From: Chloroflexota bacterium
Lineage (GTDB): Bacteria > Chloroflexota > Dehalococcoidia > Lucifugimonadales > Australimonadaceae
DNA length: 64,000 nt
Assembly (NCBI GenBank): GCA_028874795.1
Contig: JAPPHT010000056.1
Span: forward strand, 186,001 to 250,000
Direction of reading: 5' to 3'
In this document: positions 7,608 to 44,261 of the stretch, piece after piece
Layout of the letters: each line of letters starts with the position of its first letter
Position numbering within the stretch: the first letter of the stretch is position 1
Program-made: the position numbers and the translations under genes
The notes under the pieces: model-generated
Seen by the model: the letters and a program-made list of their open reading frames with translations, nothing else
What the model was told of the DNA's origin: nothing
Databases searched by the model: none

Positions 7608-7734
7608 GACACCCTCCTCAATGCACTACAAGGATGCGCCGGATCCGCCGCCAGCATAAGGGCAGTGAGTCCGTCTGTCTATCGTCGGCCGAGGAAGCAC
7701 GAATAAGGCCCGTTCATCGGCAGGCCACGGCGCG

Positions 7735-8324: not shown

Positions 8325-10376
8325 CTACGCTCCGAACCAGTCCAGGATGAACGGCTGCGGCCAGATCACTGCCAGCATGTAGTCGAAGAAGAGGAAGTTC
8401 AGGATGACGATAACCGCGCCAGCGATGACGCCGCCGATGTAGCCGGTCTTGTTCTGCATCATCAGCATGGGGCCGAACGTGGCGATGACAACGGCGCCCC
8501 ACTTGAGGCCTTCTTCTATCACGCCGGTCATGATCAGCATGATCCCCAGCATGGCGAGGAAGATGAGCCCGGCGGAGCGCGCCCCCGCCATACCCCGGCT
8601 CCGTATGCCGATGTCCATGATCGCGCCCGTCTCTTTGCCAAGTCCTTCGCGAATGAACTGCGCTATGCAGAAGACGATGCCGAAGGAAGCGAGGCTGAGG
8701 GGGAACCACTTGCCAAAGAACGAGTAGCTGAGCGCTTCCCAGATGGCATACGCCATCATGAGGATCATGGCGACGGTGAACCATTGCTCCTCGCGCCAGC
8801 GCCAGCCACCGCCCAACAGCCTCGCTCTGATTCCCGGCGCGCCGCCGGACGGCGCGGGTCTGCCGCTCGCGAGGCCGGTCTCTTCGTCCATGGCCTGAGC
8901 CCCTGTTCCCCCGCTCATGAACTTCACGAAGAGGCCGCCGATGAGGATAGCTATCACCAGGAGCACGATGAACAGCGGGCGAGTGAAGGTACCCACCCAG
9001 TCGTACCGAGCGACCGAGTTCGTGATGTTCGATTCGATGATGGGGCCGAGGATGAAGCCGATCAGCAACGGCGGGCGGGGCCAGCGGTACCGCTTCATCA
9101 ACATGCCCAGCCCCGCGCCAACGAGCACGATGCCGATGGCGCTTACGTCGCGCGTGTCCTGAAATGCGGCCAGCAGCGATATGGGGATGATGAGGAAACC
9201 CAGCACCGGGTACGGGATGAGCGTGAGGCGCGCCATCTGCCGCGTGAAGCCCAGACCCAGCATGGTCACCATCAGGTTCCCCAACCCGAGGCTCACGATG
9301 ATCATGATGGTGATGTCCGCGTGGTCCTCGAGCATGCGGGGGCCTGGAGCGATGCCATAGGAGAGCATCGCCAGGATGACGAAAGCCCAGGCACGCCCGC
9401 CGGGGATGCCGAGCGCGAGCGTCGGGACGGCCTGTCCGCCTTCTTTCGAGTTCTGCGCCGACTCTGCGAAGAGCACGCCATCCAGCGAGCCCTTGCCGAA
9501 CTGCGTCTTGTCCTTCGTCCAGAAGATGCCGAACGCATAGGACATCCAGTCCACGACGCCGCTGCCGATACCCGGCACCGCGCCGAGGAAGACACCGAAC
9601 AGGGACTGCCGGATCGCCATCGGCCAGCGGGCGAAGCCGTAGCGCGCGCCTTTGAATATCTCGTTGTAGCTGATCCTGGCGTCCTTGGGCGCGAGCGGCT
9701 TGCGCGTCATCGTGAGGTCGATGATCTCGGGCAGCGCAAACACACCGATGGTGGTCGCGATGAGCGGGAGCCCTTCCCACAGCCACTGCTGCTCGAACAT
9801 GTAGCGGAAGTCGAGGCTCACCTTGCCGGGGCCGACCGTGCCGAGGAGCATGCCGAGGCAGGCCGCGAACATGCCCTTGATCATCGCGCCGCCGCTCAGC
9901 GCGGCGACCATCGCTACGCCGAAGATCGCCATCGCGGCGATCTCCGCAAAGCCGAACTTCAGCACGAAGGGAGCGATGACGGGAATGATGACGGCGAGCG
10001 AGAGCGCGCCCACGACGCCGCCTATCGCCGAGACGGCATAGACCGCTCCCAGCGTGTGTGCCGCCTCCCCACGCTGCGCCAACTGGTTCCCTTCCAGGAA
10101 GGTCACCTGCGTCGCACCGCCCGGCATGCCAAGCAGGATGGATGGGATGGAGTCGAGCGTGTTGTCGATGCCGGTGAGCACCGCCAGCATCACGAGGCCG
10201 ATGACCGGATCGTCCACCGATATCACGATGAACGGGATCATGATGGCCATCACCAGGGTGGCCGAGATGCCAGGGATCAGGGCGATGGGAACGGTGATGA
10301 ACACCGCGACCAGGAACCCGTACCAGTAACCCGCGGTCCCGAGATAAGAGAGTCCCGCCCAGAAGTCAGCCAGCAT
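8325..10376 (-). CDS. TctA family permease with C-terminal TctB-like extension (683 aa)
   Basis: TctA motifs IPGISATLVMAIMIPF, GMPGGATQVTFLEGNQLAQRGEAAHTLGA, ALGIPGGRAWAFVILAMLSYGIAPGP; extra ~170-aa multi-TM C-terminus. Confidence 0.85.
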   Translation of the reverse strand: MLADFWAGLSYLGTAGYWYGFLVAVFITVPIALIPGISATLVMAIMIPFIVISVDDPVIGLVMLAVLTGIDNTLDSIPSILLGMPGGATQVTFLEGNQLAQRGEAAHTLGAVYAVSAIGGVVGALSLAVIIPVIAPFVLKFGFAEIAAMAIFGVAMVAALSGGAMIKGMFAACLGMLLGTVGPGKVSLDFRYMFEQQWLWEGLPLIATTIGVFALPEIIDLTMTRKPLAPKDARISYNEIFKGARYGFARWPMAIRQSLFGVFLGAVPGIGSGVVDWMSYAFGIFWTKDKTQFGKGSLDGVLFAESAQNSKEGGQAVPTLALGIPGGRAWAFVILAMLSYGIAPGPRMLEDHADITIMIIVSLGLGNLMVTMLGLGFTRQMARLTLIPYPVLGFLIIPISLLAAFQDTRDVSAIGIVLVGAGLGMLMKRYRWPRPPLLIGFILGPIIESNITNSVARYDWVGTFTRPLFIVLLVIAILIGGLFVKFMSGGTGAQAMDEETGLASGRPAPSGGAPGIRARLLGGGWRWREEQWFTVAMILMMAYAIWEALSYSFFGKWFPLSLASFGIVFCIAQFIREGLGKETGAIMDIGIRSRGMAGARSAGLIFLAMLGIMLIMTGVIEEGLKWGAVVIATFGPMLMMQNKTGYIGGVIAGAVIVILNFLFFDYMLAVIWPQPFILDWFGA

Positions 10377-10475: not shown

Positions 10476-11840
10476 CTATCCGCTGATGTACTGGGAGAAG
10501 TACTTCGGCAGCAACCGCGCCTTCTGTGCCTCGATGACTGCCTGCGAGCCCTGCAGCAGGTCCTCGTTCTCGAGCGTCGCCGCTTGTATCTCGGCCCTGC
10601 CCGTCCAACCAGGAGACTCACCCGCAACAGCCCCGTACTTCGCTATGAGCTCCTGGTCCGTGGTCAGTGCCTCTTCGAAAGCAGAGGACAATGCATCCGC
10701 GATGTGGTCCGGCGTGCCCGGCGGCAGCCAGAGCGTCTTGGAAGCGTAGTTCGTCGGACCCATCATCGAGTTGAAGACGAACGTCTGCTCCTCGTTGAAC
10801 TGCTCACGGACGTCCGCGCAGTGCGGCTCTGTCTGGGCGTTGGGCTTCAACTGGCCGGGGCCCATGCCCGCCATCGCGCGCATCAGGCCGCTCGGGATCC
10901 AGTCCGGGTTCTCCACGGGGAACCGGTACCAGAGGCTGGCACGCACCGTGCTGTTGATGTCACCGCGCGCCCACATCAGGCGCACCGCGTTCGTGTCAAC
11001 CGTGTCGAACCCGAAGTAGCGGAACGGGATGTTCAGCTGCTCCGCTGCGAACACAGAGGCAAGCAGCGTTGGGTTGCCCTCGGCGATGTCCGAGAGCTCG
11101 TCGGCCAGCAGGAACTCACCGTGGGCACCGCCGCCCGTGCTGCTCTGCCCGGAGTAGTCCCAGAGACAACTGTCAGCGGCACTGGGGCCCAGGTTGCCCA
11201 CCGGGTCGTATGTCATCCAAGCGCGGGTCGGGTCGATCGTGGCGCCGAGCGCCTGGAACGTGCTGCGCTTGATGTTCAGGGTCTCGTCACTGAAGCCGAA
11301 AGCCAACTGCGGCGTGCTGTTCCAGGAGACGTAGGTGCCGTCCTTCGCCGCCTCGGTCGCAGCGTAGATGTACTCCAGCGGCTTGTTCGGCTGGTTCGTG
11401 AACACCACCCGGGGGTTGCCGGGGATGTACTGGCTCATGAACGCCGCCATCACGCGGCCCTGGGTGTCGGTGCCGCCGCCGGGCGAGGAGTTCGCCACGA
11501 TGCGGACGGTCTTGCCGCGGAAGTGCTCAGCGGCGTCGAAGCCCGGAGGGGGCACTGGGGTCGCCGTCGGTGCGGGGCGCGGGGTCGGCGTGGGCTCCTC
11601 CATCATCGTGTCACCGGGCTCCGCGGTCGGCTCCATCATCGTGTCACCGGGCTCCGCAGTCGGTTCCATCATCGTGTCACCGGGCTCCGCGGTCGGCTCC
11701 ATCATCGTGTCTGCCGGGGTCGGCGTTGCGGCGGGCCGCGGTGTGGCTGTGGGTTCGTCCGCTCCACACGCCGCCAGTACGACCATCATGGCCGCAGCTG
11801 CGACGACTCCAGCAAGCCATCGGTTCGGTCGAATAAGCAT
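10476..11840 (-). CDS. TctC-type solute-binding lipoprotein (paralog 2)
   Basis: MLIRPNRWLAGVVAAAAMMVVLAACGADEP lipobox; start preceded by GGGAGGAGAG; same VRIVANSSPGGGTDTQGRVMAAFM core as the 6255-7607 protein. Confidence 0.85.
   Translation of the reverse strand: MLIRPNRWLAGVVAAAAMMVVLAACGADEPTATPRPAATPTPADTMMEPTAEPGDTMMEPTAEPGDTMMEPTAEPGDTMMEEPTPTPRPAPTATPVPPPGFDAAEHFRGKTVRIVANSSPGGGTDTQGRVMAAFMSQYIPGNPRVVFTNQPNKPLEYIYAATEAAKDGTYVSWNSTPQLAFGFSDETLNIKRSTFQALGATIDPTRAWMTYDPVGNLGPSAADSCLWDYSGQSSTGGGAHGEFLLADELSDIAEGNPTLLASVFAAEQLNIPFRYFGFDTVDTNAVRLMWARGDINSTVRASLWYRFPVENPDWIPSGLMRAMAGMGPGQLKPNAQTEPHCADVREQFNEEQTFVFNSMMGPTNYASKTLWLPPGTPDHIADALSSAFEEALTTDQELIAKYGAVAGESPGWTGRAEIQAATLENEDLLQGSQAVIEAQKARLLPKYFSQYISG
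11607..11715 (-). repeat. 33-bp coding tandem repeat (TAEPGDTMMEP units) in the lipoprotein linker
   Basis: Near-identical units TCCATCATCGTGTCACCGGGCTCCGC(G/A)GTCGG(C/T) repeated about three times. Confidence 0.85.
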
Positions 11841-11972
11841 CTCTCCTCCCTTGTCCGTCACCCATTCCGTCGCCGGAATGAATGAGCCGCCCTCTCGGCG
11901 GCGATTGCTCGATGCTGCTGCCGTGCCGCTGGCCGCGAGGCCAGCGTACGGTTAACAGCCAGTTACAAACGC

Positions 11973-14531: not shown

Positions 14532-15392
14532 CTATCCGATGGCGTCCGTCAGACGTTCGAGTTGCTCAAGGTCCGGCGTCACGGGCCGGAAGATGACCTC
14601 GTCCGAGCCCAGCTCTTCGTGCATGGCGATCGTGTTGCGAATGACCTCGGGCGTGGTGGGTTGCAGCCGCGCCTGACGCGACGGGTCCCCGCCATAGTAG
14701 TGCCCCAGCGCGGCTGCGACGGCGTCGTCAGCACCGGGGCCGAGCGCGCACGGCAGGGTGACGACGATGCGCGGCTTTCCCTCACGTTCGTGCTCCACCC
14801 AGGACTCGTCGATCTGGGCCATCGTGTTCCTGACCCACTCGGCTTCGAGCGACCTTGTGCCCATCACGTAGCCGCTGGCGAACTTCCCTATGCGCGCTAT
14901 AGCTCTGGGATGCGTTCCACCGATGAGTATCTCCGGCCCCCCGGGCTGCACCGGGGCGGGCCCAACGGGATGTTGCGCCCCCTCGAACACTTCGCCGGCC
15001 CAGATACGCTTCATATGAACGAGCTGCTCCTCGAACAGCCTGCCCCGGTTGCGGAACTGAGCAGGCGCGACGATGGCGTCGTCTTCCCGTCCGCCGACCG
15101 CAAGCCCCAGCGTCAGGCGCCCGTTCGAGATGGCGTCTATCGTCGCCGCCTGCTTGGCGAGCACGCCCGCGTTCCGCAACGGCGCGAGCAGGATGCCGGT
15201 CACGAGGCGCAGCCGTTTCGTGATGGCAGCCACCGCCGCCAGCTCAGCCATCGCCTCGAAGTTGTCGTACGCCAGCCTGTCGAGCGCCGCGAACGAAGAG
15301 TACGGTCCTTCGTCGGCCCGGCGCGCCAGCTCGGAGATGTAGCCCCAACTGTCCGTTGGCATCCTGTACGGAAGCCCGACGCCCACCTTCAT
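14532..15392 (-). CDS. LLM class flavin-dependent (luciferase-like) oxidoreductase
   Basis: MKVGVGLPYRMPTDSWGYISELARRAD...LRLVTGILLAPLRNAGVLAKQAATIDAISNGRLTLGLAVGGREDD. Confidence 0.9.
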   Translation of the reverse strand: MKVGVGLPYRMPTDSWGYISELARRADEGPYSSFAALDRLAYDNFEAMAELAAVAAITKRLRLVTGILLAPLRNAGVLAKQAATIDAISNGRLTLGLAVGGREDDAIVAPAQFRNRGRLFEEQLVHMKRIWAGEVFEGAQHPVGPAPVQPGGPEILIGGTHPRAIARIGKFASGYVMGTRSLEAEWVRNTMAQIDESWVEHEREGKPRIVVTLPCALGPGADDAVAAALGHYYGGDPSRQARLQPTTPEVIRNTIAMHEELGSDEVIFRPVTPDLEQLERLTDAIG

Positions 15393-15396
15393 GCGC

Positions 15397-16296
15397 TCAC
15401 CTTCCCTTGAACTCCGGACTCCGCTTATCGAGGAAGGCCCGTACCGCTTCCTTGTGGTCCTCAGATCGGCGCGCCAGCTCCTGGGCCGTCTGCGCCAGGC
15501 GCAGACTCTCCGCGAACCCCATGTCGAACGACCGTTGTACGAGATACTTCGTCAGCGACATCGAATACGTCGCGCCGGAGGCAAGACGCCGGGCGAACTC
15601 AATGGCGGCGGAAAGCATCTCCTCGTGGGGATGCACCTTGCTCACGAGCCCCATCCGGTACGCGTCGTCGGCACTCAGCCGGTCGCCCGTGTACTGCATG
15701 TAGTACGTGTTGCTCAAGCCTATGAGGCGGGGCAACTGCCAGCAGGAGCCGTCGCCCGGTACGAGTCCCATCCGCACGAACGCCTCAGCGAACTCCGCCT
15801 TCTCAGACGCTATGCGGATGTCGCACGAAAGCGCGAGACCGAGCCCGACCCCGATGGCATGACCGTTCACCGCCGCGATGGTTGGCTTCTGCACCTCGCC
15901 GATCCGCAGAGGAACGTTCGAGACAGGGCCGAACCCCGCCTCCGCCCTCTCCGACGAGCGCTGACCGAGCCGCGCCTCCATGTCGCCCCAGGGCAACGGC
16001 TGGCGCTCTGTTCGCGCCCCCTCTTCCTGCTGGATGCGGCCGATCACCTCGTCGAACCTGCGGATGTTCGCGCCCGAACAGAACGAAGGATCGCGCCCCG
16101 TGAGCACGAGCACGCGGTCGGCCTCGTTGCCCTCGAACGCATCGAGCTCGGCGTACAGCTCCGCGGCCATCTCCGACCCGAGCGCATTGCGCGTCTCAGC
16201 ATGGTCGAGCGTGATGAGCACGACACCGTCGGCTCGGTGGACTTCGATGAATTCGCTCGTGACACTCCTCCTCTGCGGCGTGGGGTCGCCCGGCAT
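15397..16296 (-). CDS. enoyl-CoA hydratase/isomerase family protein
   Basis: VHRADGVVLITLDHAETRNALGSEM, GRDPSFCSGANIRRFDE, KPTIAAVNGHAIGVGLGLALSCDIRIASEKAEFAEAFVRMGLVPGDG; exact start uncertain. Confidence 0.9.
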   Translation of the reverse strand: MPGDPTPQRRSVTSEFIEVHRADGVVLITLDHAETRNALGSEMAAELYAELDAFEGNEADRVLVLTGRDPSFCSGANIRRFDEVIGRIQQEEGARTERQPLPWGDMEARLGQRSSERAEAGFGPVSNVPLRIGEVQKPTIAAVNGHAIGVGLGLALSCDIRIASEKAEFAEAFVRMGLVPGDGSCWQLPRLIGLSNTYYMQYTGDRLSADDAYRMGLVSKVHPHEEMLSAAIEFARRLASGATYSMSLTKYLVQRSFDMGFAESLRLAQTAQELARRSEDHKEAVRAFLDKRSPEFKGR

Positions 16297-16417
16297 TCTA
16301 TGGAGGGGCATGCCGGCTGTCCAACGTGAGGGCAATGCCGGGCCAGGCGCAGCGCACGGCGATTGACGCCGCGCGGGCTGCCAACTACGCTCAGCCCAAC
16401 CTGACCCGAGGTACCAC

Positions 16418-16942
16418 ATGAGCGCAGGCGAGATCTCGAACGCAGCCTATGACCGCATCGGCGGCGTCTTCCACCGCGCCCTCACCGACCTGACCCTCGA
16501 TCAGCTCAAGGCGCAGCCCTCCGGGCCTGAGAGCAATCCCATCGGCTGGCTGGCCTGGCACCTCACCCGCACGCAGGACAAGAACTACTCCGAACTGCTC
16601 GGTGAAGAGCAAGCCTGGACGGCGGATGGGTGGTGCGAGCGTTTCGGCCTGCCTGCGGACAGGGGCTCCGGCAACGGCGACTCGCTCGAGCAGGTGCGTG
16701 CGTTCGACCCCATCGATTCGGACACGCTCATCGCCTATTTCGAGGCCGCGCGCGAGAAGTCCCGACGGTTCCTCGACGCCGTCACCGACGACGACCTCGA
16801 GAGGCCGAGCGCAGCGGGAGTCGCGCGCAACGAGACGATCAAGATGTCCGTCGCCCGCGTCACCGGAGACCTCATCCAGCACACAGGCCAGATTGCCTAC
16901 GTGCGCGGGTTGGTCGACCGGCACGGCTGGTACGGTGCGTAG
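16418..16942 (+). CDS. DinB-like / DUF664 family protein
   Basis: NPIGWLAWHLTRTQDKNYSELLGEEQAW...VTGDLIQHTGQIAYVRGLVD pattern of a DinB-like metal-binding four-helix bundle. Confidence 0.75.
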   Translation: MSAGEISNAAYDRIGGVFHRALTDLTLDQLKAQPSGPESNPIGWLAWHLTRTQDKNYSELLGEEQAWTADGWCERFGLPADRGSGNGDSLEQVRAFDPIDSDTLIAYFEAAREKSRRFLDAVTDDDLERPSAAGVARNETIKMSVARVTGDLIQHTGQIAYVRGLVDRHGWYGA

Positions 16943-16984
16943 CACCTGAAACGCAGGGAGATCCAGGACTGAGAGGACGAGCAC

Positions 16985-18262
16985 ATGCTGACGCAAGAGC
17001 AGAACGATCGCATCACGCGGGTTGGCTCCGGTACCCCTATGGGCGAACTGATGCGCCGCTACTGGCACCCCATCGCAGCCACGGCAGAGCTGGACGAGCG
17101 CCCCACCAAGCCGATCCGCGTCCTCGGCGAGGACCTCGTCCTCTACAGGGACAGGTCCGGCGCCCTCGGTCTCATCGAACGCTTCTGCCCCCACCGCCGC
17201 GTCGACCTCTCATACGGCATCCCCGAGGAGCACGGCCTCCGCTGCATGTACCACGGCTGGATGATGGACGAGACCGGACAGTGCATCGAGCAACCCTTCG
17301 AGGAGACGGTGCACCCGGACGGGCGCTTCAAGGAGAAGGTGAAGGTCGCCGGCTACCCCGTACAGGAGCTCGGAGGACTCATCTTCGCCTACATGGGCCC
17401 GCAGCCCGCGCCGCTGCTCCCCAACTACGACATCCTCGCGCAGAAGGAAGGCGTGTTGCGGGAGGCCTTCATCGCGGTGGTCCCGTGCAACTGGGTGCAG
17501 TGCATGGAGAACTCCGTGGACCCCGTACACCTGGAGTGGCTTCACGGCGTGTACGGCGCCCACCGCGCAAAGCTGGAGGGCCGCCGCGACGCCGTTGCGG
17601 AGAGTCTCGCCATGTACGACCGCCACAAAGAGATCGGCTTCGACGAGTTCGAACGCGGCATCATCAAACGCCGCGTCTACGGCAACACGACCAAGGAGTC
17701 GCCCAAGTGGAGCGTGGGCCATCCCCTGCTCTTCCCGAACATCCTCCAGCAAGGCGGCGGCGGACGTTACTTCTTCCAGTACCGCGTGCCGATCGACGAC
17801 ACGCACACCTGGCACGTCGAGCTCACGAGCTACTGGTTCCCGGACGACATCGAGGTCCCGGAGCAGGACAGCATCCCTTGCACGAACATCGAACTGAGGA
17901 ACCCGGACGGCACGTGGCGCAGCGACGACACGCTCGCGCAGGACCACGCGGCGTGGATACTGCAGGGGCCCATCATGGACCGCACGGCGGAGCGGCTCGG
18001 CGAGTCCGACCGCGGCCTCATCCTCTACCGGAAGATGCTGGACGAGCAGGCCGCTGTCGTCGAGGACGGCGCCGAGCCGCTCAACGTGCTCCGCGACCCT
18101 GCGGAGAACGTGATGATCCACGTGCCGCAGGAGGGCTGGGGCAAGCTGGGGCGGACGTCGGACATCGACGAGGTCGCCCGGTACGGCAGCAAGGTCAAGC
18201 CGCTCATCGTCGACCTGCTTTCGCAGACCTCATACGTCCAGCAGCACCACGCAACAGCCTAG
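16985..18262 (+). CDS. Rieske [2Fe-2S] ring-hydroxylating oxygenase alpha subunit, phthalate 4,5-dioxygenase-like (paralog 1)
   Basis: CPHRRVDLSYG...GLRCMYHGWMMDETGQC Rieske CxH-CxxH; catalytic N-SVDPVHLEWLHG. Confidence 0.9.
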   Translation: MLTQEQNDRITRVGSGTPMGELMRRYWHPIAATAELDERPTKPIRVLGEDLVLYRDRSGALGLIERFCPHRRVDLSYGIPEEHGLRCMYHGWMMDETGQCIEQPFEETVHPDGRFKEKVKVAGYPVQELGGLIFAYMGPQPAPLLPNYDILAQKEGVLREAFIAVVPCNWVQCMENSVDPVHLEWLHGVYGAHRAKLEGRRDAVAESLAMYDRHKEIGFDEFERGIIKRRVYGNTTKESPKWSVGHPLLFPNILQQGGGGRYFFQYRVPIDDTHTWHVELTSYWFPDDIEVPEQDSIPCTNIELRNPDGTWRSDDTLAQDHAAWILQGPIMDRTAERLGESDRGLILYRKMLDEQAAVVEDGAEPLNVLRDPAENVMIHVPQEGWGKLGRTSDIDEVARYGSKVKPLIVDLLSQTSYVQQHHATA

Positions 18263-18280
18263 GGAGACGAACGACACGCC

Positions 18281-19507
18281 ATGACGACCAACTCACCACT
18301 GAACTTCGGCATCATCGGTCTGGGCGCGGGCGCGATGAACATGATCCCCGAGCTGCGAGCGAACCCGAACGCTCGCATCGTGGCCGTCGCCGACCCGCGC
18401 GCCCCCGCTCGCGAGCGGTTCGAGCGCGACTTCGGCGGGCGCGCTTACGACGACGCTGAGGGACTGTGCGCCGACCCCGGCGTGGACATCGTCTACGTGA
18501 TGACGCCGGATGAGATGCATTCGGCGCATACCGTGATGGCGGCGGAGCGTGGCAAGCAGGTCATCCTCGACAAGCCCATGGGACTGACGCTCGACGAGTG
18601 CGATGCGATCATCGAGGCGACGGAGCGCAACGGCACGCGCGTCCTCGTCGGCCACTCGCAGAGCCTCGACCTCCCGAACCTGAAGATGGCGGAGATCGCC
18701 AACAGCGGCAGGCTCGGCAGGGTCGTGATGATGCACACCATGTTCTACAGCGACTGGATCTACCGGCCGCGCGCCAAGGAAGAGCTGATGCAGGACCGCG
18801 GCGGGAGCATCGTGCGCCGGCAGGGCCCCATCCAGGTGGACATCTCCCGCATGATCGGCGGTGGCAAGGTGCGCTCCGTTCGCGCCCGCACGAACATTGT
18901 CGACCCGGACCGCCCCATCGACGGCTCGTTCATGGCGTTCCTCGATTTCGAGGACGGCCACACCGCCACTATCACCTACGACGGCTACGGCCACTTCAAC
19001 AGCGCGGAGTTGACGTTCGGCTACACGCTCCAGGGACAGCAGATGGACGCTGCGCTGCACGTCAACTCGCGGAGGCGCATCGCTGCGTTCGCGGATGCGG
19101 ACGCGGAGGAGGCGTACAAGGAGTCCACACGCTACGGCGGCTCGCTCGAACGCTCCATCGAATACCCGGTCTCGCCCGACCGTCGGCTCGCCTTCTTCGG
19201 CATGACGCTCGTGTCGTGCGAGCACGGCGACATGCGGCAGACGCCCACCGGCGTCATCGTCTACGGCAACGACGGCAACGAAGAGATAGACCTTCCCGCG
19301 GGCCCCGGCTACAACCGACGTTACTGCTCGATAGAGGTCGACGAGATGTGCCGCGCCATCCGCACGGACACGCCCGTTCGCGTCCACGACGCCTACTGGG
19401 GCAAGGCGACCCAGGAGGTCGTCCTCGGCATCATCCAGTCCTCGGACGAACGCCGGGAGGTCTTCATGGAGCACCAGGTCCCCTACACCGGTCAGGGAGT
19501 CGAGTAG
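18281..19507 (+). CDS. Gfo/Idh/MocA oxidoreductase, phthalate cis-dihydrodiol dehydrogenase-like (paralog 1)
   Basis: FGIIGLGAGAMNMIPELRANPNARIVAVADPR...VDIVYVMTPDEMHSAHTVMAAERGKQVILDKPMGLTLDE. Confidence 0.9.
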   Translation: MTTNSPLNFGIIGLGAGAMNMIPELRANPNARIVAVADPRAPARERFERDFGGRAYDDAEGLCADPGVDIVYVMTPDEMHSAHTVMAAERGKQVILDKPMGLTLDECDAIIEATERNGTRVLVGHSQSLDLPNLKMAEIANSGRLGRVVMMHTMFYSDWIYRPRAKEELMQDRGGSIVRRQGPIQVDISRMIGGGKVRSVRARTNIVDPDRPIDGSFMAFLDFEDGHTATITYDGYGHFNSAELTFGYTLQGQQMDAALHVNSRRRIAAFADADAEEAYKESTRYGGSLERSIEYPVSPDRRLAFFGMTLVSCEHGDMRQTPTGVIVYGNDGNEEIDLPAGPGYNRRYCSIEVDEMCRAIRTDTPVRVHDAYWGKATQEVVLGIIQSSDERREVFMEHQVPYTGQGVE

Positions 19508-19580: not shown

Positions 19581-22500
19581 ATGAGAACAGTTCAGCGTGT
19601 CACAGGCATCGGATCCCTGTGCTTGATCATCGCCCTTCTGCCGCTTGCATGTGACGACGCCCCGCCTCCCACCAAGCCACCGCCTGCCGCGCTGCCAACG
19701 GCCACCGATACTCCCCTGCCCACCCAGACTCCACCGCCTACCAGCACACCCATGCCTCAGGGGGAACATGGTCCCGAGGAACCAGCCACCCTCGAGCTCC
19801 CGCGCGGTTCCATCAGCAGCGGCGGATATCACACGTGCAAGCTGGACGAGGATGGTGCTCCCGCCTGCTGGTGGGTGTCCGAACAGGACCTTCGCGTCCC
19901 CCTGGCGCCGCCGCCGGAGGGTGAGACCTTCACCTCCATCAGCAGCGGGGTCGCCCACACCTGCGGACTGCGCGAGGACGGAACGGCCGTCTGCTGGGCG
20001 ATAATCGAGGAAGAGGGCCTGGAAGTCCTGTCGTCCCCGGAGGGAGAGGCCCTCACCGCCATCAGCAGCGGGGCGTACCACGCCTGCGGCCTCCGCGAGG
20101 ACGGAGCGCCCGTCTGCTGGCTGGTTATCGAGGAACTCCTCGGCGAGACGATTGCATCCCCGCCGGAGGCTGAGACCTTCACCTCCATCAGCAGCGGCGC
20201 CGCCCACACCTGTGGCCTGCGCGAAGGCGGTACACCCGTCTGTTGGCTGGTCGTCGACGACGGCGAGACCCTCATCCAATCGCCTCCCGAAGGGGAGACT
20301 TTCGTCTCCATCAGCAGCGGGGCCTACCACACCTGCGGGCTGCGCGAGAACGGTACGCCCGCCTGCTGGCCCGTCGTCGATGAAGCCACTGGCGATGTAC
20401 TGTCGCCTCCTCCGCAGGGCTCGCCTTTCGTATCTGTCAGCAGCGGCCTCTTCCACACGTGCGGCCTCCACGAGGACGGGACGTCGACGTGCTGGTGGAC
20501 CTTTGGCGAAACGATTGACTACTCCCTGGCGCCTCCATCCCCTGCGCAGGAGGAACGGTTCATCGCCATCAGCAGCGGGCTGTCTCACGCGTGCGGACTG
20601 CGCCAGGACGGCAGCCACGCCTGCTGGACCGCAGACCCGTATGCCGCCATCAGACAGGGGTTCGGCGGACAGACCATCTTTGAACCTATCGACGGCGCCT
20701 ACTTCGCCATCAGCAACGGCGCAGGCCATACCTGTGCGTTGCAGGAGGGCGGCAGGCCGGCCTGTTGGGGCAACGATGACCATGGCCAGGCATCGCCACC
20801 GGAGGACGAGTCGTTCACCGCGATCAGCAGTGGTGGTGACTCTACCTGCGCCCTGCGCAACGACGGCTCCGCCGCGTGTTGGGGCGCGGACGACCAGGGC
20901 CAATCTTCCCCGCCGGAAGGCGAGTCCTTCACGGCAATCAGCAGCGGAGGTGACTCTACCTGCGCCCTGCGCAACGACGGCTCCGCCGCGTGTTGGGGCG
21001 CGAACGACCAAGGCCAATCGTCTCCGCCGGAAGGCGAGTCCTTCACGGCCATCAGCAGTGGAGAGGCGTTCTCATGCGGCCTGCGGGGGGATGGTTCAGT
21101 CGTCTGCTGGGGCAGCAACGAGGAGGGCCAGGCGTCGCCGCCGCAGAGTGGGCGGTTCGTCTCCATCAACAGCGGCGCCACGCACGTTTGTGCGCTGCAC
21201 GCGGACGGCAGCCCGTACTGCTGGGGAAGCGACGAGTACGGCAGGGCATCGGCCCCGCTCGCCGATGAGTTCGTTTCCATCACCAGTGGACGGGACCACA
21301 GCTGTGGTCAACGCAGCGACGGCGACGTGGTGTGCTGGGGCCTCAGCCCTGAGATTCCTCTGGGCGAACGGCTGACGCACCTGACCATCGGGGACCACCA
21401 CACGTGCGCCCTGCGGCACGACGGCAGCCCCGTCTGCTGGGGATACGGCTACGACACCCCTGCGGAATCGGCCAGGCGTCCGCCGCTCGAAGCGATGAGC
21501 GACGACCGGTTCACCGCGATCAGCAGTGGCTACTACCATGCCTGCGCGCTGCAGGAGAACGGTGAGCCGGTCTGCTGGTCCTGGTACGGGTCTGGCAGCG
21601 AACAGTTCGTCCCTTACGGCAAAAGGCTCGCGTCCATCAGCAGCGGAGGGGCCCACGTTTGCGGGCTTCGGCAGGACGGAACGGCCGACTGCTGGGGTGA
21701 CGATTCGTACGGTCAGAGCTCGCCTCCGCAAGGTGAACGGTTCCTGCAGCTCAGCAGCGGTTATACGTATGCCTGCGGGCTGCGTGAAGACGGCTCGCCG
21801 ACCTGTTGGGGCGCAGACGAGCACGGGGAGGCCTCTCCGCCTGAGGGCGAGCGCTTCACCGCCATCGCCGCCGCCGACGGGTTGTACGACAGACACACCT
21901 GCGCACTACGCCAGAATGGGAGCGCCGTCTGTTGGGGCGCCGACTCCGATGGCCAGGCGTCGCCGCCGGAAGAGGAGCGGTTCCAGACTATCAGCGTGGG
22001 CGGGAGCCACACTTGCGGGCTGCGCGTTGAGGACGGGACGGCCGTCTGCTGGGGCAAGGACGACGTGCATCAGGCGTCGTCGCCGGAAGGCGAAGCCTTC
22101 TCGGCCATCACCAGCGGCAGGGCGCACACCTGCGCGCTGCGTCAGGACGATGGCACAGCCATCTGCTGGGGGTCCGACCGCAACCACGTGAACGACTACA
22201 CAGGCCAAGCGTCGCCGCCTTATGGCGTTCGGCTTGCTGCCATCAGCGCGGGCGAGGATTCCACCTGCGCGCTTCGGGCCGAGGACGCTACGCCAATCTG
22301 CTGGGGCGAGGGCTTTCAGTACGACCAGCCGGAGGAGGTCCCATTCTCTTCGGCGAGCGAAGGGGTATTCTCCGCCATCAGCAGCGGAGCGGACCACGTC
22401 TGCGCGCTCCGCGAGGACCAGACCGCGGCGTGCTGGGGTGGCAACGACGCCAACAAGGCGTCGCCGCCGCCAGAGCGGTTCAGCGCGATCAGCAGCGGTA

Positions 22501-24095
22501 CGACGCACACCTGCGCTCTTCGGGCGGACGACGGCGTAGCCGTCTGTTGGGGCAGCAACACGGACCCCTTGGACAGGTATGAAGCGTACAAGGGCCAGGC
22601 CTCTCCGCCATATAACGAGCGGTTCACGACGATCAGCAGCGGGGAAGCCCACACCTGCGCCCTGAGAGAGGATGGAACAGCAGCATGCTGGGGCGACAAC
22701 GACTACGGTCAGTCGTCACCCCCCGAAGGCGAACGGTTCGTTGCGCTCCTCAGCCTGGGAATCGCCTCCTGCGGGCTGCGCGACGATGGCGTAGTCATCT
22801 GTTGGGGCGATTACTTCTCCCGCCATAGTCCCTACGAAGAGGGCCTTTCCTCGATAGGGACAGGACGCGGCAACGGCCACATCTGTGGACTCCGCGAGGA
22901 TGGTTCCGCGTTCTGCTGGGGGGCGGACCACCACGATCAGGCATCCCCGCCGGACGGTGAAACGTTCTCGGAGATAAGCATGGGCCGAGCGCACACCTGC
23001 GCGCTGCGGGAGGATGGTACGGCGGTCTGCTGGGGCCTCAACATTCAGCCCACCTACGGAGCCTGGTACGGCCAGGCGTCGCCGCCGGAGGGCCAACGCT
23101 TCAAGGCCATCAGCAGCGGTCCGCTGTTTACATGCGCACTGCGTCTCGATGGCACTCCAAGCTGTTGGGGCCAGGACTACGACACTCCGGAACCGGAGCG
23201 GACCGAATACGCGGCGGTCGTCAACGACAGCTTTGTGGCCATCGACACCGGATCGAACTACAGCTGCGGGCTTCGCGCCGATGGCACGACGGTCTGTTGG
23301 GGCGACTGGGATCCAGATACGGGGCGATATGGAGACCACGGGCGGGAATGGCCGCCGGAAAGCGAGCGGTTCTCGTCCATCAGCACGGGATCGTCGCATA
23401 CGTGCGGACTCCGGACACGAGACGGGACCGTAGTCTGCTGGGGTGAGAATCTCAACGGGGAGGCATTCCCTCCGGATGAAGAGAGATTCGCCGCCATCAG
23501 CGCCGGCTCATCAGACACGTGCGGCATCCGACTCGACGGCACGTGGAGTTGCTGGGGTTTTGTCAGTAACGTCTCCGGTGGCCACTATGTACCCGCGCCC
23601 GACCCCGGCGAGCGTTTCACTTCCATCGCGAACGGCTCGTTTCACATGTGCGGGCTCCGGGAAGACGGCTCAGCCGTTTGCTGGGGCAGCAATCGCGAGG
23701 GCCAGACCCTGGTTCCGGAGGGCGAGGTGTTCACCGAGCTCAGCGGCGGTTCGTCGCACACGTGCGGATTACGGCCGGACCAGACTGCCGTCTGCTGGGG
23801 CGCCATCGATACCGATCAGGGATTCGGCCAATCAACGCCGCCGTCCAACGAGCGGTTCGTCTCCATCAGCAGCGGCGGGTACCACACATGCGCCTTGCGT
23901 GAGGACGGCTCCGCCGTGTGTTGGGGCGCCCGGATGAGTGATACGCATCCCTTGCGGGAGAACAGCGTCGGACAATCAGAGGCGCCTGCGGGAGAGGTCT
24001 TCACCGCCATCAGTTGCGGAGACCTCCACACATGCGCCCTCCGCCCGGACGGCACGCCCGTCTGCTGGGGCAAGGGATTTCCGGCAACACCCTGA
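19581..24095 (+). CDS. giant RCC1-like repeat lipoprotein (1504 aa, 35 repeats)
   Basis: Signal peptide with lipobox LPLAC, Pro/Thr-rich stalk, then 35 copies of ISSGxxHTCxLRxDGxxxCWGxxxxGQxSPPEGExF. Confidence 0.9.
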   Translation: MRTVQRVTGIGSLCLIIALLPLACDDAPPPTKPPPAALPTATDTPLPTQTPPPTSTPMPQGEHGPEEPATLELPRGSISSGGYHTCKLDEDGAPACWWVSEQDLRVPLAPPPEGETFTSISSGVAHTCGLREDGTAVCWAIIEEEGLEVLSSPEGEALTAISSGAYHACGLREDGAPVCWLVIEELLGETIASPPEAETFTSISSGAAHTCGLREGGTPVCWLVVDDGETLIQSPPEGETFVSISSGAYHTCGLRENGTPACWPVVDEATGDVLSPPPQGSPFVSVSSGLFHTCGLHEDGTSTCWWTFGETIDYSLAPPSPAQEERFIAISSGLSHACGLRQDGSHACWTADPYAAIRQGFGGQTIFEPIDGAYFAISNGAGHTCALQEGGRPACWGNDDHGQASPPEDESFTAISSGGDSTCALRNDGSAACWGADDQGQSSPPEGESFTAISSGGDSTCALRNDGSAACWGANDQGQSSPPEGESFTAISSGEAFSCGLRGDGSVVCWGSNEEGQASPPQSGRFVSINSGATHVCALHADGSPYCWGSDEYGRASAPLADEFVSITSGRDHSCGQRSDGDVVCWGLSPEIPLGERLTHLTIGDHHTCALRHDGSPVCWGYGYDTPAESARRPPLEAMSDDRFTAISSGYYHACALQENGEPVCWSWYGSGSEQFVPYGKRLASISSGGAHVCGLRQDGTADCWGDDSYGQSSPPQGERFLQLSSGYTYACGLREDGSPTCWGADEHGEASPPEGERFTAIAAADGLYDRHTCALRQNGSAVCWGADSDGQASPPEEERFQTISVGGSHTCGLRVEDGTAVCWGKDDVHQASSPEGEAFSAITSGRAHTCALRQDDGTAICWGSDRNHVNDYTGQASPPYGVRLAAISAGEDSTCALRAEDATPICWGEGFQYDQPEEVPFSSASEGVFSAISSGADHVCALREDQTAACWGGNDANKASPPPERFSAISSGTTHTCALRADDGVAVCWGSNTDPLDRYEAYKGQASPPYNERFTTISSGEAHTCALREDGTAACWGDNDYGQSSPPEGERFVALLSLGIASCGLRDDGVVICWGDYFSRHSPYEEGLSSIGTGRGNGHICGLREDGSAFCWGADHHDQASPPDGETFSEISMGRAHTCALREDGTAVCWGLNIQPTYGAWYGQASPPEGQRFKAISSGPLFTCALRLDGTPSCWGQDYDTPEPERTEYAAVVNDSFVAIDTGSNYSCGLRADGTTVCWGDWDPDTGRYGDHGREWPPESERFSSISTGSSHTCGLRTRDGTVVCWGENLNGEAFPPDEERFAAISAGSSDTCGIRLDGTWSCWGFVSNVSGGHYVPAPDPGERFTSIANGSFHMCGLREDGSAVCWGSNREGQTLVPEGEVFTELSGGSSHTCGLRPDQTAVCWGAIDTDQGFGQSTPPSNERFVSISSGGYHTCALREDGSAVCWGARMSDTHPLRENSVGQSEAPAGEVFTAISCGDLHTCALRPDGTPVCWGKGFPATP
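20823..21050 (+). repeat. recent 114-bp tandem duplication (repeats 9 and 10) inside the RCC1-like gene
   Basis: Both units encode ISSGGDSTCALRNDGSAACWGA(D/N)DQGQSSPPEGESFTA; period 114 nt (20823 and 20937). Confidence 0.9.
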
Positions 24096-24211: not shown

Positions 24212-25299
24212 ATGAAAGCAGCCGTTCTGGTAGAAGCGAACGAACCGCTGAGGATAGAAGAAGTCGAGCTCGACCCACCGAAGGCGAACGAGGTGCGCGT
24301 CAACATCGCGGCGGCGGGCGTCTGCCGCAGCGACCTCCACTTCATGCGCGGTGAGGCCATCATCGCCAAGCCGGCTGTGCTCGGTCACGAGGGTTCCGCC
24401 ATCGTCCAGGAGGTCGGTGAGGGCGTGACACGCGTCGCTCCCGGCGATCACGTCATCCTCTCCTTCGTGCCGTTCTGCGGTCGCTGCCCGTCCTGCATCA
24501 GCGGACGCGCCAACCTCTGCGACACCCACCTGGCAACCGGCCCGCAGATGTTCGACGGCACGCGCCGCCTGCACTGGAACGGTCAAGACCTCGCGCACAT
24601 GGGGAAGGTGGCGTGCTTCGCGGAGCAGGCCGTCGTGCCGGAGGCGGGCTGCATGAAGATCGACCCGGACTTCCCGCTTCCGGTGGCCGCGCTCATCGGC
24701 TGCAGCGTCACCACCGGCGTCGGCTCGGTGCTGTTCAGCGCGCAGGTCGAGCCCGGCAGCACCGTCGCGGTCATCGGCTGCGGCGGCGTGGGGTTGAACG
24801 TCGTGCAGGGCGCGCGCCTCGCGGGCGCCAGACGCATCATCGCGGTGGACATCAACGACGCCGCGCTCGAGTTCGCCACCCGGTTCGGCGCCACCGACAC
24901 CGTCAACCCCAACGACGGCGACGCGTTGAAGACGATCCGCCACATGACCGGCGGCGGCGTGGACTACGCCTTCGAGGCGTTCGGCTCTTCCGAGACGGCC
25001 TCCCTCACGTTCGACGCCGCGCGCAAGGGCGGCACCGCCGTCATCGTCGGTCTCGCGCCCGTGGGCGACTACGCCAGCATCGACGCTGTCGCGCTCGTGC
25101 GCTACGAGAAGACGCTGAAGGGCGCCTACTACGGCTCATCCCGTCCCGCCATAGACTTCTACCGCATGGTGGACTTCTACCAGAGCGGCAAGATAGACGT
25201 GGACGGCCTCATCACGCGCACCTACAGCCTCGACCAGATCAACGAGGCGTACGAGGAGCTGGACCGGGGCGTCGTCGGCCGCGGGGTCATCACGTTCTG

Positions 25300-25300
<1 letters not shown>
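24212..25300 (+). CDS. zinc-binding alcohol dehydrogenase (class III-like MDR)
   Basis: [81 protein letters not shown]. Confidence 0.95.
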
Positions 25301-25769
<469 letters not shown>

Positions 25770-25773
<4 letters not shown>

Positions 25774-26642
25774 TCCCCGCGGCGTTCACCTACCACGCGC
25801 CCCGGACGCTCGGCGACGCCGTCCGCCTGCTGCGCGCGTACGAAGGCGAGGCCCGCGTCGTCTCCGGCGGCATGAGCCTCATACCCGCAATGAAGCTGCG
25901 GCTCGTCCAGCCCGAACACCTGATCGACATCGGGAGGCTCGGCGAACTCGATTACGTCCGGCGCACCGAGGACGGCGGCGCCGCCATCGGCGCGGGCGCG
26001 ACGTACCGCAGCATCGAGCGGTCGCGGACGGTGGCAGCGGTTGCGCCGATGCTGGTCGAGACGGTGCGCCAGGTGGGCGACCTGCAGGTACGGAACCGCG
26101 GGACGCTGTGCGGCAGCGCCGCGCACGCCGATCCCGCAGCCGACGCGCCAGCGGCGCTCCTGGCCCTCGACGCCACCCTCCACACCACCGGCGGGCCGAG
26201 CCGCCGCTCGATACAGGCGCGCCGGTTCTTCGTCGACGCCTACGAGACCGTGCTCGGGCCGACCGAGGTGCTGACCGAGATACGCATCCCGAAGCAGCCT
26301 GCGCGCACGGGCTCGACGTACCTGAAGTTCGCGAACAAGGCTTCGCGATTCGCCATCGTGGGCGTCGCGGCAGCCGTCACGGTTGACCGGGGCGGCGTCT
26401 GCACACGGGCGCGCATCGCGGTGACCGGGGCGGGGCCGCGCGCGGTGCGCGCGACGGCGAGCGAGCGCTATCTCGAAGGCCGGCAGCTCTCGGCGGAGGC
26501 CATCGCGGCAGCGGCATCACGGGCGTCGCGCGGCATGGAGTTCATCGAGGACGTCCACGGCTCCGAGGAGTACCGCGAACACCTTACCGGCGTGCTCACC
26601 CAGCGCGCGCTGATGGAAGCCGCGCGCCGCGCGGGCGTGTAG
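25770..26642 (+). CDS. FAD-binding medium subunit, xanthine dehydrogenase/CO dehydrogenase family
   Basis: [63 protein letters not shown]; 4-nt overlap with the upstream gene. Confidence 0.9.
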
Positions 26643-26646
26643 AGCG

Positions 26647-26946
26647 CTAAACCCCGCGCTTCTTCCCAGCGGCGACAGGAGCCAAGCTGACGTCCTCCGT
26701 GGAGGGCACGCCGGCCCACCCGACGGTCGTCACCACGCGAACGTGATCAATGTCAAAGTCCGATATGGCTCGGACCTGATCGGCAGGAACAGGGGCAATC
26801 GCTACCGTCCTGCCGGTGCGCGTCATGAACTCCACAAGGAACTTACCGGGGTAGACAGAAACGATCGTCCCCATGTCCCCCGCTTCGAGTCCTTCCTTGG
26901 GAAGGTCGGCGGTCAGTACGATGACGTCGTGTTCCTCAAACATCAT
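26647..26946 (-). CDS. DUF4926-like small protein
   Basis: MMFEEHDVIVLTADLPKEGLEAGDMGTIVSVYPGKFLVEF; ATG overlaps the stop of the upstream ORF. Confidence 0.7.
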   Translation of the reverse strand: MMFEEHDVIVLTADLPKEGLEAGDMGTIVSVYPGKFLVEFMTRTGRTVAIAPVPADQVRAISDFDIDHVRVVTTVGWAGVPSTEDVSLAPVAAGKKRGV

Positions 26947-27302
26947 CTCTCCCTCAGCGTCGGATACGCCGAAATCAGCCTCGGCACCGGAGTGCTCGGG
27001 CCAATCTCCCACACGGCCCGGATGGTCGGGTTACGACCGTCTGGGACGTTCATGATACTTTCCACCGCATAGCTCGTGCCAGTACCCGTCTCCCTGCTGT
27101 TTACAACCTCATTGCTTGCGGCATGCACGCGCAACGCCTCCGCGAACTCTTCCCAGCGGTCCGCACTGAACCCGAACCGCAGGAAGAACTCTGCCTTGGC
27201 TTTACCGCGGACATGGACAGGACTGAGCAGGTAGTCCACGACCTTCGCCCGATCGACGCGTGCCTGCTCGGCGTTGGGAAGCCTCAACCCCGATTGCCCC
27301 AC
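26943..27302 (-). CDS. DUF6883-like small protein
   Basis: LPNAEQARVDRAKVVDYLLSPVHVRGKAKAEFFLRFGFSADRWEEFAEAL...GTSYAVESIMNVPDGRNPTIRAVWEI. Confidence 0.65.
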   Translation of the reverse strand: MGQSGLRLPNAEQARVDRAKVVDYLLSPVHVRGKAKAEFFLRFGFSADRWEEFAEALRVHAASNEVVNSRETGTGTSYAVESIMNVPDGRNPTIRAVWEIGPSTPVPRLISAYPTLRER

Positions 27303-27889
27303 CTGTCCCAGTGGGTGACCTCGGACGCCGGGCGGCGCGTGGTCGGGCCGTAGCGATGGCCGTCCTGCGGCCAGCCGAGCGGGATCATGGCGGCGGTGGC
27401 GAAGTCCTCGGGCAGCCCGATGGCCTCGCGTATCTGCGGCTCGAAGCCGCGCCGGACGCGAGTCGTCAGCACGCTCCCCAGCCCGAGCGCCCGCGCCGCG
27501 AGCAGCATGTTCTGCACAGCCGGGTAGATGGAGGCGCCATGGCTGATGTCGGTCCCGGGGTGCCGCGTGACGGCGAGTATCCAGACCGGCACGTCCATGA
27601 CGTGCTGCGCGAGGTAGTCCGCGGACTCAGCGGCGCGCACCTGCGAGGGCGTCAGGGCCTCGTCATGGTCCGGTCGCGGGGTGCCCGGGTAGTGTTCCGC
27701 GATGATGCGCTTCGTCGCCTCGTCCTTGATGACGACGAACCCCCATTGCTGGTTGTTGCCACCGTTGGGAGCACGGATGCCGGCCTCGATGACCTTCCGC
27801 ACGAGGTCGTCCGGGACGGGGTCGGTCTTCAGGTAGCGCAGCGCCCGCTGCGTATACATCGCATCGAACAGTCCTATGTCCTCGCTCAT
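27284..27889 (-). CDS. nitroreductase family protein
   Basis: MSEDIGLFDAMYTQRALRYLKTDPVPDDLVRKVIEAGIRAPNGGNNQQWGFVVIKD. Confidence 0.9.
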   Translation of the reverse strand: MSEDIGLFDAMYTQRALRYLKTDPVPDDLVRKVIEAGIRAPNGGNNQQWGFVVIKDEATKRIIAEHYPGTPRPDHDEALTPSQVRAAESADYLAQHVMDVPVWILAVTRHPGTDISHGASIYPAVQNMLLAARALGLGSVLTTRVRRGFEPQIREAIGLPEDFATAAMIPLGWPQDGHRYGPTTRRPASEVTHWDRWGNRG

Positions 27890-27947
27890 CGCCGCTCCTC
27901 GTTTCGTCGTAGTGGAGTCTGAGTGCCCCGGGGAACCCTGTTCACTG

Positions 27948-28154
27948 CTAGACGGCCTCAAAGTCAAAGATCGGCATGATCTCCCAGTGCGTCCATACCC
28001 CAGTGTCGGTGTTGCACGGAGGCGGAGGGTTGCGGCGAGCAAACTCCTGTGCTTCCTTCTGCGTACTGTAGGACTCGAACCAGGACTCTCTTCCGTGCCT
28101 CTCGCACGAGGCTATCAACTGATATCTGCTGGGTTCACCGAACTCTCCGGTCAT
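27948..28154 (-). CDS. small hypothetical protein (68 aa)
   Basis: MTGEFGEPSRYQLIASCERHGRESWFESYSTQKEAQEFARRN... with upstream AGAAGGGAA. Confidence 0.45.
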   Translation of the reverse strand: MTGEFGEPSRYQLIASCERHGRESWFESYSTQKEAQEFARRNPPPPCNTDTGVWTHWEIMPIFDFEAV

Positions 28155-28277
28155 ATTCCCTTCTCGCTTTCCGCTATCCACTCCTCTCCTCTTCACTCCT
28201 GCCGTGCAACATTGTATATAGTTCCCTAAACTTACCATCGAAGATACCGCACGGGCACCGAAGCACGGAGGAACTCG

Positions 28278-29510
28278 ATGCTGACGACCGACATGAACGA
28301 CCGACTGACTCAGGTGGGGCCGGGCACGCCGATGGGAGATCTGATGCGCCGCTACTGGCACCCCATCGCCGCGAGCCTCGAGCTCAACGAGGAGAACCCC
28401 ACAAAGGAGATACGCCTCCTCGGCGAGGACCTCGTCCTCTACCGCGACGCCAGCGGCAAGGTCGGCTGCATCGAGCCGTCGTGCGCGCACCGCAAGGCGA
28501 ACCTGTCCTACGGCATCCCGGAAGAGAACGGGCTGCGCTGCGCCTACCATGGCTGGATATTCAACGAGACCGGACAGTGCGTCGACCAGCCGTCGGAGCC
28601 GGAAGGCTCCAAGTTCAAGGAGAAGGTGCGCATCAGGGCGTACCCCGTGGAGGAGAAGGGCGGGGTCATCCACGTCTACATGGGGCCGGACCCGGTCCCC
28701 GTGCTCCCGAACTGGGACCTGTACCAGTGGGAGGGGGTGGAGCGCTCGACCTACGCGGTGATGCTGCCGTGCAACTGGCTGCAGTGCCACGAGAACTCGC
28801 TGGACCCGGTGCACTTCCAGTGGCTGCACCGCTACTACGGGATGTGGCGCGCGTCCAAGATCATGGGCGAGGAGCGCCGCGAGGAGTTTGACCGCATCTC
28901 CGCGGCGCGCGGCAAGGCCCACGTCAAGATCGGCTTCGACCGGTTCGAGTACGGCATCATCAAGCGGCGGATGCTGGAGGGCGAGGACGAGCAGAGCGAG
29001 TGGTGGCGCATCGGCCACCCCATCCTCTTCCCGTACACGCTGCGCGTCGGCCAGGGAACGTGGTTCGAGTTCCAGCACCGGGTGCCGGTGGACGACACCC
29101 ACACGCTGCACTTCGGCTACACCATCCGCACTCCGGAGCCCGGTGAGGTCATCGCGCCCACGCCGATGAGGCACGAGGACCGGCCCGCCTTCTTCGACAA
29201 CGGCCGCATCAAGGACGACTGGGTCGTCGGGCAGGACCAACTCGCGTGGATCATCCAGGGCCCGCGCATGGACCGAAGCACGGAGGCGCTGGGCATCACG
29301 GACATCGGTCTCATCATGTTCCGCAACATGCTCAACGAGCAGATCAAGGTGGTCGAGGACGGCGGCGACCCGGTCAACGTCCACCGGACCGCCAGGGAGA
29401 TCATCGAGCTGCCGACCGAGTTCGCCTGGTACCCCGGCTACGACCGCACCGGCGGCCCGTTCGCCGACCTCCAGCCGCAACCCGTGGAGCTGGAGCGGAG
29501 CCTGCTGTAG
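28278..29510 (+). CDS. Rieske ring-hydroxylating oxygenase alpha subunit (paralog 2)
   Basis: CAHRKANLSYGIPEENGLRCAYHGWIFNETGQC; NSLDPVHFQWLHRYYG. Confidence 0.9.
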   Translation: MLTTDMNDRLTQVGPGTPMGDLMRRYWHPIAASLELNEENPTKEIRLLGEDLVLYRDASGKVGCIEPSCAHRKANLSYGIPEENGLRCAYHGWIFNETGQCVDQPSEPEGSKFKEKVRIRAYPVEEKGGVIHVYMGPDPVPVLPNWDLYQWEGVERSTYAVMLPCNWLQCHENSLDPVHFQWLHRYYGMWRASKIMGEERREEFDRISAARGKAHVKIGFDRFEYGIIKRRMLEGEDEQSEWWRIGHPILFPYTLRVGQGTWFEFQHRVPVDDTHTLHFGYTIRTPEPGEVIAPTPMRHEDRPAFFDNGRIKDDWVVGQDQLAWIIQGPRMDRSTEALGITDIGLIMFRNMLNEQIKVVEDGGDPVNVHRTAREIIELPTEFAWYPGYDRTGGPFADLQPQPVELERSLL

Positions 29511-44043: not shown

Positions 44044-44261
44044 GTCCGGCCTCCTGTTGCGATCGCCGTGCGGTTGCCGCCGTTGGCAGCATAGGCTGCG
44101 GCATGAGAGACGGCAAATTGTGAAGACGGTTCACACACCCTTGCGCCAGACATTGACCTGAGGCGCACGCACAGGTAGAGTGCCCGCAACAATCGCGGTA
44201 CAGACGATCCGCGCGCTAGGCGGTTCGTTCCCGCGTGTCTGGAAAATCGGGGAGGAGACCG

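Follow-up and report, generated by a model that had tools for sequence, protein, structure and literature searches.

A cysteine-paired array of 35 RCC1_2 repeats in a Chloroflexota bacterium, most likely folded as five seven-bladed propellers

The gene, its repeats and their paired cysteines

The subject of this study is a 64,000-nucleotide stretch of DNA from a Chloroflexota bacterium (assembly GCA_028874795.1, contig JAPPHT010000056.1, positions 186,001 to 250,000 of the forward strand), here called the window, and within it a single gene on the plus strand (19581..24095) that encodes a 1504-residue protein with 35 repeats of the RCC1_2 family (Pfam PF13540). The open reading frame (ORF) starts with ATG and ends at a stop codon, and all features described for it lie on the same strand. 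The N-terminus of the product consists of a signal peptide (residues 1-23) and a putative lipidation site, Cys24, in the motif LPLAC (together 19581..19652), which were read from the sequence and are kept in the ortholog from the congener Dehalococcoidia bacterium p16x34bins.71 (locus L027, on the same contig as L087). These are followed by a stalk of 47 residues, recognised by its composition and including 16 Pro and 9 Thr (residues 25-71; 19653..19793), and by the repeats, which are 34-48 residues long and fill the rest of the chain from residue 72 onwards. The original prediction, made from the sequence before this analysis, had described just this layout, with LPLAC, a Pro/Thr stalk of about 50 residues and 35 Cys-pair repeats extending to the C-terminus, and this layout was confirmed, with 35 pairs counted.

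The RCC1_2 model matched the protein in 28 stretches with a score of 597 bits (E 2e-185; cut-off 22), so the repeat assignment is not due to chance. The protein is thus a member of RCC1_2, which is what the proposed hidden Markov model comparison with RCC1 and RCC1_2 was to establish. Apart from RCC1-type repeats, Pfam returned for the whole protein one sub-threshold match and no kinase or TNFR model. Every repeat carries either C-X9-CW or C-X10-CW; the two Cys and the Trp are invariant (35/35), and the full CWG is present in 27 of the 35. Mean pairwise identity between the repeat cores is 53%. A lag analysis inside the protein gave only weak local maxima at lags of 7 and 14 repeats (0.544 and 0.548 vs a mean of 0.531), and a recent duplication of whole propellers within the protein found no evidence there.

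The protein contains 73 Cys. Of these, 70 are paired, in line with the earlier estimate of about 70; C14 belongs to the signal peptide, C24 is the residue that would be lipidated, and C1479 is an extra one. While pairing had been called correctly for all 35 repeats, the spacing of 11-13 residues given for it had to be corrected to 10 or 11. In 1068 distinct repeats in which both positions could be aligned, both Cys were present in 1054, neither in 13 and a single one in 1; the profile used favours Cys-bearing repeats, yet with it a single loss is easier to detect than a double one. Furthermore, the ortholog retains the pair in 33 of 33 aligned repeats. Because the Cys are kept or lost together, disulfides are favoured, with probably one disulfide in the hairpin of each propeller blade and seven per propeller. 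This coupled loss supports the disulfide role suggested earlier for the pairs, as do the plant crinkly repeats, in which this motif recurs; they are about 39 residues long, carry C-X~10-CWG, number seven per protein and are thought to be disulfide-stabilised between neighbouring strands (PMC4617170).

Conceivably, the pairs could instead hold metal or switch back and forth between thiol and disulfide states, so that the protein would be a metal- or redox-active Cys array. Such an array would suit the regular spacing of the 70 Cys and the fact that dedicated disulfide-forming enzymes were not found in the genome. However, two Cys per blade supply only two ligands, the His of GxxHTC is kept in just 26 of the 35 repeats, and the corresponding pairs of the plant crinkly repeats are interpreted as disulfides. 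In addition, some repeats lack the Cys but otherwise have the same sequence, so a blade can do without them. We regard a metal or redox function as highly improbable. As a separate observation, the same genome encodes at least seven proteins with many conserved Cys pairs even though VKOR, DsbB, Thioredoxin_4 and DsbD were not found in it. Its sole PF01323 match has an in-frame stop, and in the long ORFs of its locus no CxxC was seen.

Seven repeats as the structural unit

By sequence, the nearest solved structures were the ectodomains of ACR4 (PDB 7a0j) and CR4 (7a0k), followed by the beta-lactamase inhibitory protein II (BLIP-II) of Streptomyces. To model one unit of seven repeats, or heptad, AlphaFold2 was given repeats 8-14 together with 13 in-register heptads from the window protein, the ortholog and one metagenome-assembled genome (MAG) each of Burkholderiales and Polyangiaceae. 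The resulting model of repeats 8-14 had 21 strands, a predicted local distance difference test score (pLDDT) of 90.1 and a predicted template modelling score (pTM) of 0.87. For this one modelled heptad, the second of the protein, we are confident in the predicted arrangement of seven blades of three antiparallel strands, i.e. a propeller of the BLIP-II type. A Foldseek search with the model placed BLIP-II at the top (template modelling score (TM) 0.83, root-mean-square deviation 1.8 A) and CR4/ACR4 next (TM about 0.8). The check by AlphaFold, on which the original prediction had staked itself, thus returned a propeller, and the Cys pairs and repeats are kept in homologues. Together, the RCC1_2 match, the nearest structures, the heptad model and the Foldseek result bear out its claim of RCC1-type beta-propellers.

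BLIP-II (PDB 1jtd, 3qhy, 3qi0) resembles the window protein in being secreted, with repeats of about 38 residues and, as modelled here, seven blades of three strands. It differs in having one propeller, aligned repeats that lack a Cys pair per blade, a known target and no stalked lipoprotein form. The extracellular ectodomain of plant CRINKLY4/ACR4 shares C-X~10-CWG in each of seven repeats and a proposed disulfide per repeat, but there one propeller per protein precedes TNFR-like, transmembrane and kinase parts, which the window protein lacks. Since no kinase or TNFR match was obtained and the repeats reach the C-terminus, the window protein is not a member of the CRINKLY4 family; its subtype, by prediction, is that of BLIP-II.

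A model built from seven repeats cannot alone establish seven as the natural closure, a point that the repeat counts address. A profile built from the window protein was used to count repeats in 58 complete ORFs of the genus and the order, which fall into 37 similarity groups. Seven repeats were found in 28 of these ORFs and 14 in 16, against 35 in the window protein. Multiples of seven accounted for 45 of the 58 ORFs and for 30 of the 37 groups (P 4e-27 and 1.6e-19, respectively, against an expectation of 1/7), so the survey of related genomes for repeat-number variation, suggested along with the original prediction, revealed counts quantised in sevens. Some of the off-seven counts (6, 8, 15, 22) are counting artefacts, for example where an insertion splits a repeat, and some are real. 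RCC1_2 was present in 74 of 251 Chloroflexota genomes. Six further RCC1_2 paralogs occur in the same genome (contigs C17, C4, C81, C45, C22 and C84; L021-L026), whose repeats number 7, about 8, 14 or 15-16; the majority are lipoproteins on long Thr/Pro stalks, C81 has Ig/fn3-like domains in place of the stalk, and C17 and C45 consist of seven repeats, a Pro/Thr-rich linker and seven repeats. Bacterial RCC1_2 proteins of Chloroflexota and other phyla belong to the same Pfam family, and Cys-type repeats were seen in the Burkholderiales and Polyangiaceae MAGs. Unlike the window protein, they mostly have 7 or 14 repeats; 35 was the count of the window gene and its ortholog.

Arrays of 49 repeats (7x7; about 2040-2119 residues) are encoded by four Chloroflexota genomes, all from a single other family (L115 1794-7925; L133 4543-10668; L134, minus strand; L135 1034-7390). 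No lipobox was seen in these homologues, and an ordinary signal peptide looks likely. Three of the 49-repeat proteins were tested, and in them the longest linkers are those that follow repeats 7, 14, 21, 28, 35 and 42 (P <= 2e-4). The longest linkers of the window protein have the same phase, falling after repeats 7, 14, 21 and 28 (P 0.003-0.012). Furthermore, the closest counterparts of the window protein's heptads 2 and 3 in the 49-repeat proteins are their heptads 3 and 4, which makes part of the array collinear and old. From the counts in sevens and the phase of the linkers we conclude that the 35 repeats most likely form five seven-bladed propellers, with boundaries near residues 370, 640, 926 and 1214, which would be separate in the folded protein. 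Propeller 1 would comprise repeats 1-7 (residues 72-370; 19794..20690), a divergent subtype without Gly after CW that was delimited by Cys pairs, repeat table and linker phase. Propeller 2, the one modelled and matched to BLIP-II, would comprise repeats 8-14 (residues 371-640; 20691..21500). The repeat table and in-register alignment define the remaining three, i.e. propeller 3 with repeats 15-21 (residues 641-926; 21501..22358), which aligns in register with propeller 2, propeller 4 with repeats 22-28 (residues 927-1214; 22359..23222) and propeller 5 with repeats 29-35 (residues 1215-1504; 23223..24092). Of the very long multi-propeller rod imagined originally, the multi-propeller part is thus upheld by the quantised counts; the rigid rod is not, the model of 24 repeats having been poor.

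The propellers of the window protein are mutually diverged (normalised similarity about 0.3-0.43), whereas the same propeller compared between the orthologs scores 0.66-0.80. This bears on the idea that the propellers merely supply length or bulk, as a structural spacer or surface-layer rod that binds no specific ligand. A length-setting part would fit the variation by whole propellers among relatives (1, 2, 5, 7), the Pro/Thr stalk, and the fact that two congeners dispense with the gene. Spacer domains are, however, usually homogenised, and propellers that differ from one another yet stay distinct between orthologs fit a role of their own for each; we consider a spacer unlikely. Among highly repetitive beta-propellers, long arrays of blades have been described that divide into several propellers, with RCC1/BLIP-II named as an amplifying lineage (PMC9218822). 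Those arrays are recent and near-identical with variable blade numbers, in contrast to the diverged window repeats and the counts settled on sevens. Elsewhere, adjacent RCC1_2 genes at L102 3656-14227 (G036) have near-identical repeats of 37-43 residues (14, 14+8, 14, 7+partial), some of them fused to a trypsin-like domain, and look like a recent amplification of blades. Another ORF of 2282 residues (L124 10029-16874; G267) has 14 + 14 Cys-pair repeats split by carboxypeptidase-regulatory-like repeats, and its C-terminal part resembles, by eye, a clostripain-type protease.

Probable membrane anchor, genomic setting and evolution

A canonical lipobox, [LVI][ASTVI][GAS]C, was detected by a simple script in 40 of 59 listed ORFs and not in the window protein. 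In most relatives it stands at the equivalent place, as a rule ahead of a Pro/Thr stalk. LPLAC is identical in the ortholog, and Lgt is encoded twice in the genome. The protein is probably a membrane-anchored lipoprotein, and the surface anchoring proposed for it is supported to that extent. Three unrelated lipoprotein-like ORFs in the window (6258-7625 and 10479-11951 on the minus strand, 44220-45563 on the plus strand) carry stalks of much the same Thr/Pro style, built from short tandem repeats such as TPxPxDTMMEEPTP; judged by eye, the ORFs resemble solute-binding proteins of the tripartite-tricarboxylate type. Stalked lipoproteins therefore look ordinary in this organism.

The gene occupies an accessory site bounded on the left by a Gfo/Idh/MocA oxidoreductase gene (18281..19507, plus strand), found in each of the six genomes from the genus, and on the right by a zinc alcohol dehydrogenase (ADH) gene (24212..25300, plus strand), both assigned by Pfam. 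The same order of Gfo/Idh, repeat gene and ADH is found in the genome of the ortholog. In two congeners, about 110 bp separate Gfo/Idh from ADH, without a repeat gene and with the region upstream of ADH kept. This empty site implies that the gene is either an accessory insertion or was lost in a lineage-specific manner. The flanking regions (14532-18262 and 24212-29510) form a catabolic neighbourhood with two Rieske/LigXa-type oxygenases, a luciferase-like monooxygenase, an enoyl-CoA hydratase, a molybdopterin-type dehydrogenase subunit and a nitroreductase, and its gene content appears to resemble that reported for SAR202-type Dehalococcoidia.

The ortholog contains 33 repeats followed by a frameshift (L027 about 10270-10360), which may be real or an assembly error, and repeats 34-35 are readable in another frame. 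Between the two genes the synonymous divergence (dS) was 0.71 and the ratio of nonsynonymous to synonymous divergence (dN/dS) 0.21, compared with a dS of about 0.36 and a dN/dS of 0.06-0.075 for the flanking genes. The repeat gene is under purifying selection yet evolves much faster than its neighbours, and the doubled dS may stem from repeat recombination or transfer. One could also imagine a dispensable or decaying gene, kept by repeat recombination instead of function, in keeping with its absence from two congeners, the frameshift in the ortholog record and a dS twice that of the flanking genes. Set against this are the dN/dS of 0.21, the retention of all Cys in the 33 aligned repeats, and the quantisation in sevens, which points to selection on a folded domain. 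We judge decay to be very unlikely.

A candidate role in extracellular binding

The residues of BLIP-II that contact beta-lactamase include W152, F230, E268, W269 and N304, among others (PMC10817188), and the contacts take in the two residues that lie between the G and the H of its repeats. In our alignment, W152 and E268/W269 (chain numbers plus 38) match the variable xx of SSGxxHTC in the window protein. Between the orthologs, these xx positions had a dN/dS of 0.42, compared with 0.18 for the core. In addition, RCC1_2 repeats of relatives are fused to trypsin-like, alpha/beta-hydrolase, fn3/Ig and PD40 domains, as would fit a binding module. We therefore favour, at somewhat better than even chances, a stalked lipoprotein whose five propellers of the BLIP-II/crinkly type act as a multivalent extracellular binder. 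A multi-headed, tethered enzyme inhibitor, in which each propeller would block a hydrolase of competitors or hosts (beta-lactamase-like or a protease) as BLIP-II does, could draw on the same alignment and on BLIP-II being the best structural match. However, at the positions of the aromatic BLIP-II contacts the window protein varies widely, BLIP-II is a single propeller, and the propellers of ACR4, UVR8 and RCC1 do quite different jobs; we hold an inhibitor to be distinctly unlikely.

Several observations weigh against a lipid-anchored binder of five propellers. In the motif L-P-L-A-C, position -3 is Pro, which usual lipobox patterns do not allow, and position -2 is Leu. A reliable model exists for no more than one propeller, and an off-phase AlphaFold run on 24 repeats, made for the propeller boundaries, was poor (pLDDT 52, pTM 0.34). 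VKOR, DsbB, Thioredoxin_4 and DsbD, any of which might make the disulfides, were not found in the 97%-complete genome. A check of the neighbourhood for a functional partner returned metabolic genes only (Rieske, Gfo/Idh, ADH, molybdopterin-type dehydrogenase and similar), with no ligand or partner gene among them. Finally, variability at the putative binding face exceeds that of the remaining positions only moderately between the orthologs. Accelerated evolution of this face was considered and dropped, the excess at xx not being decisive when other columns vary as much.

For the multivalent binder we envisage the following mechanism. The protein would be exported by Sec and lipidated at Cys24, with the Pro/Thr stalk carrying the propellers. 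Beyond the stalk, five consecutive seven-bladed propellers of the BLIP-II/crinkly subtype would follow, with three strands per blade and each blade hairpin stapled by one disulfide, seven per propeller, and copy number would shift mainly by whole propellers. Each propeller would present its own variable face, composed of the xx of GxxH and the loop after CWG, which BLIP-II uses on beta-lactamase, and the array could bind extracellular proteins or glycans multivalently for adhesion, capture or as a decoy.

In the literature that could be searched by terms, no account was found of a diverged array of five or seven Cys-paired propellers of this kind, and nothing on RCC1 proteins of SAR202/Chloroflexi. 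More speculatively, and at rather long odds, the Chloroflexota may possess a modular family of surface receptors in which disulfide-stapled propellers are gained or lost whole (1, 2, 5, 7), each with its own ligand, to form capture or decoy arrays, the CR4 ectodomain of plants then being a eukaryotic use of a bacterial module. The natural series of one, two, five and seven propellers with quantised lengths makes propeller closure and the evolution of tandem propellers directly testable. It also suggests that a plant receptor ectodomain has a bacterial counterpart carrying the same Cys signature. The window protein itself is large, variable, accessory and probably exposed on the surface, and it comes from a lineage whose surface biology is little known.

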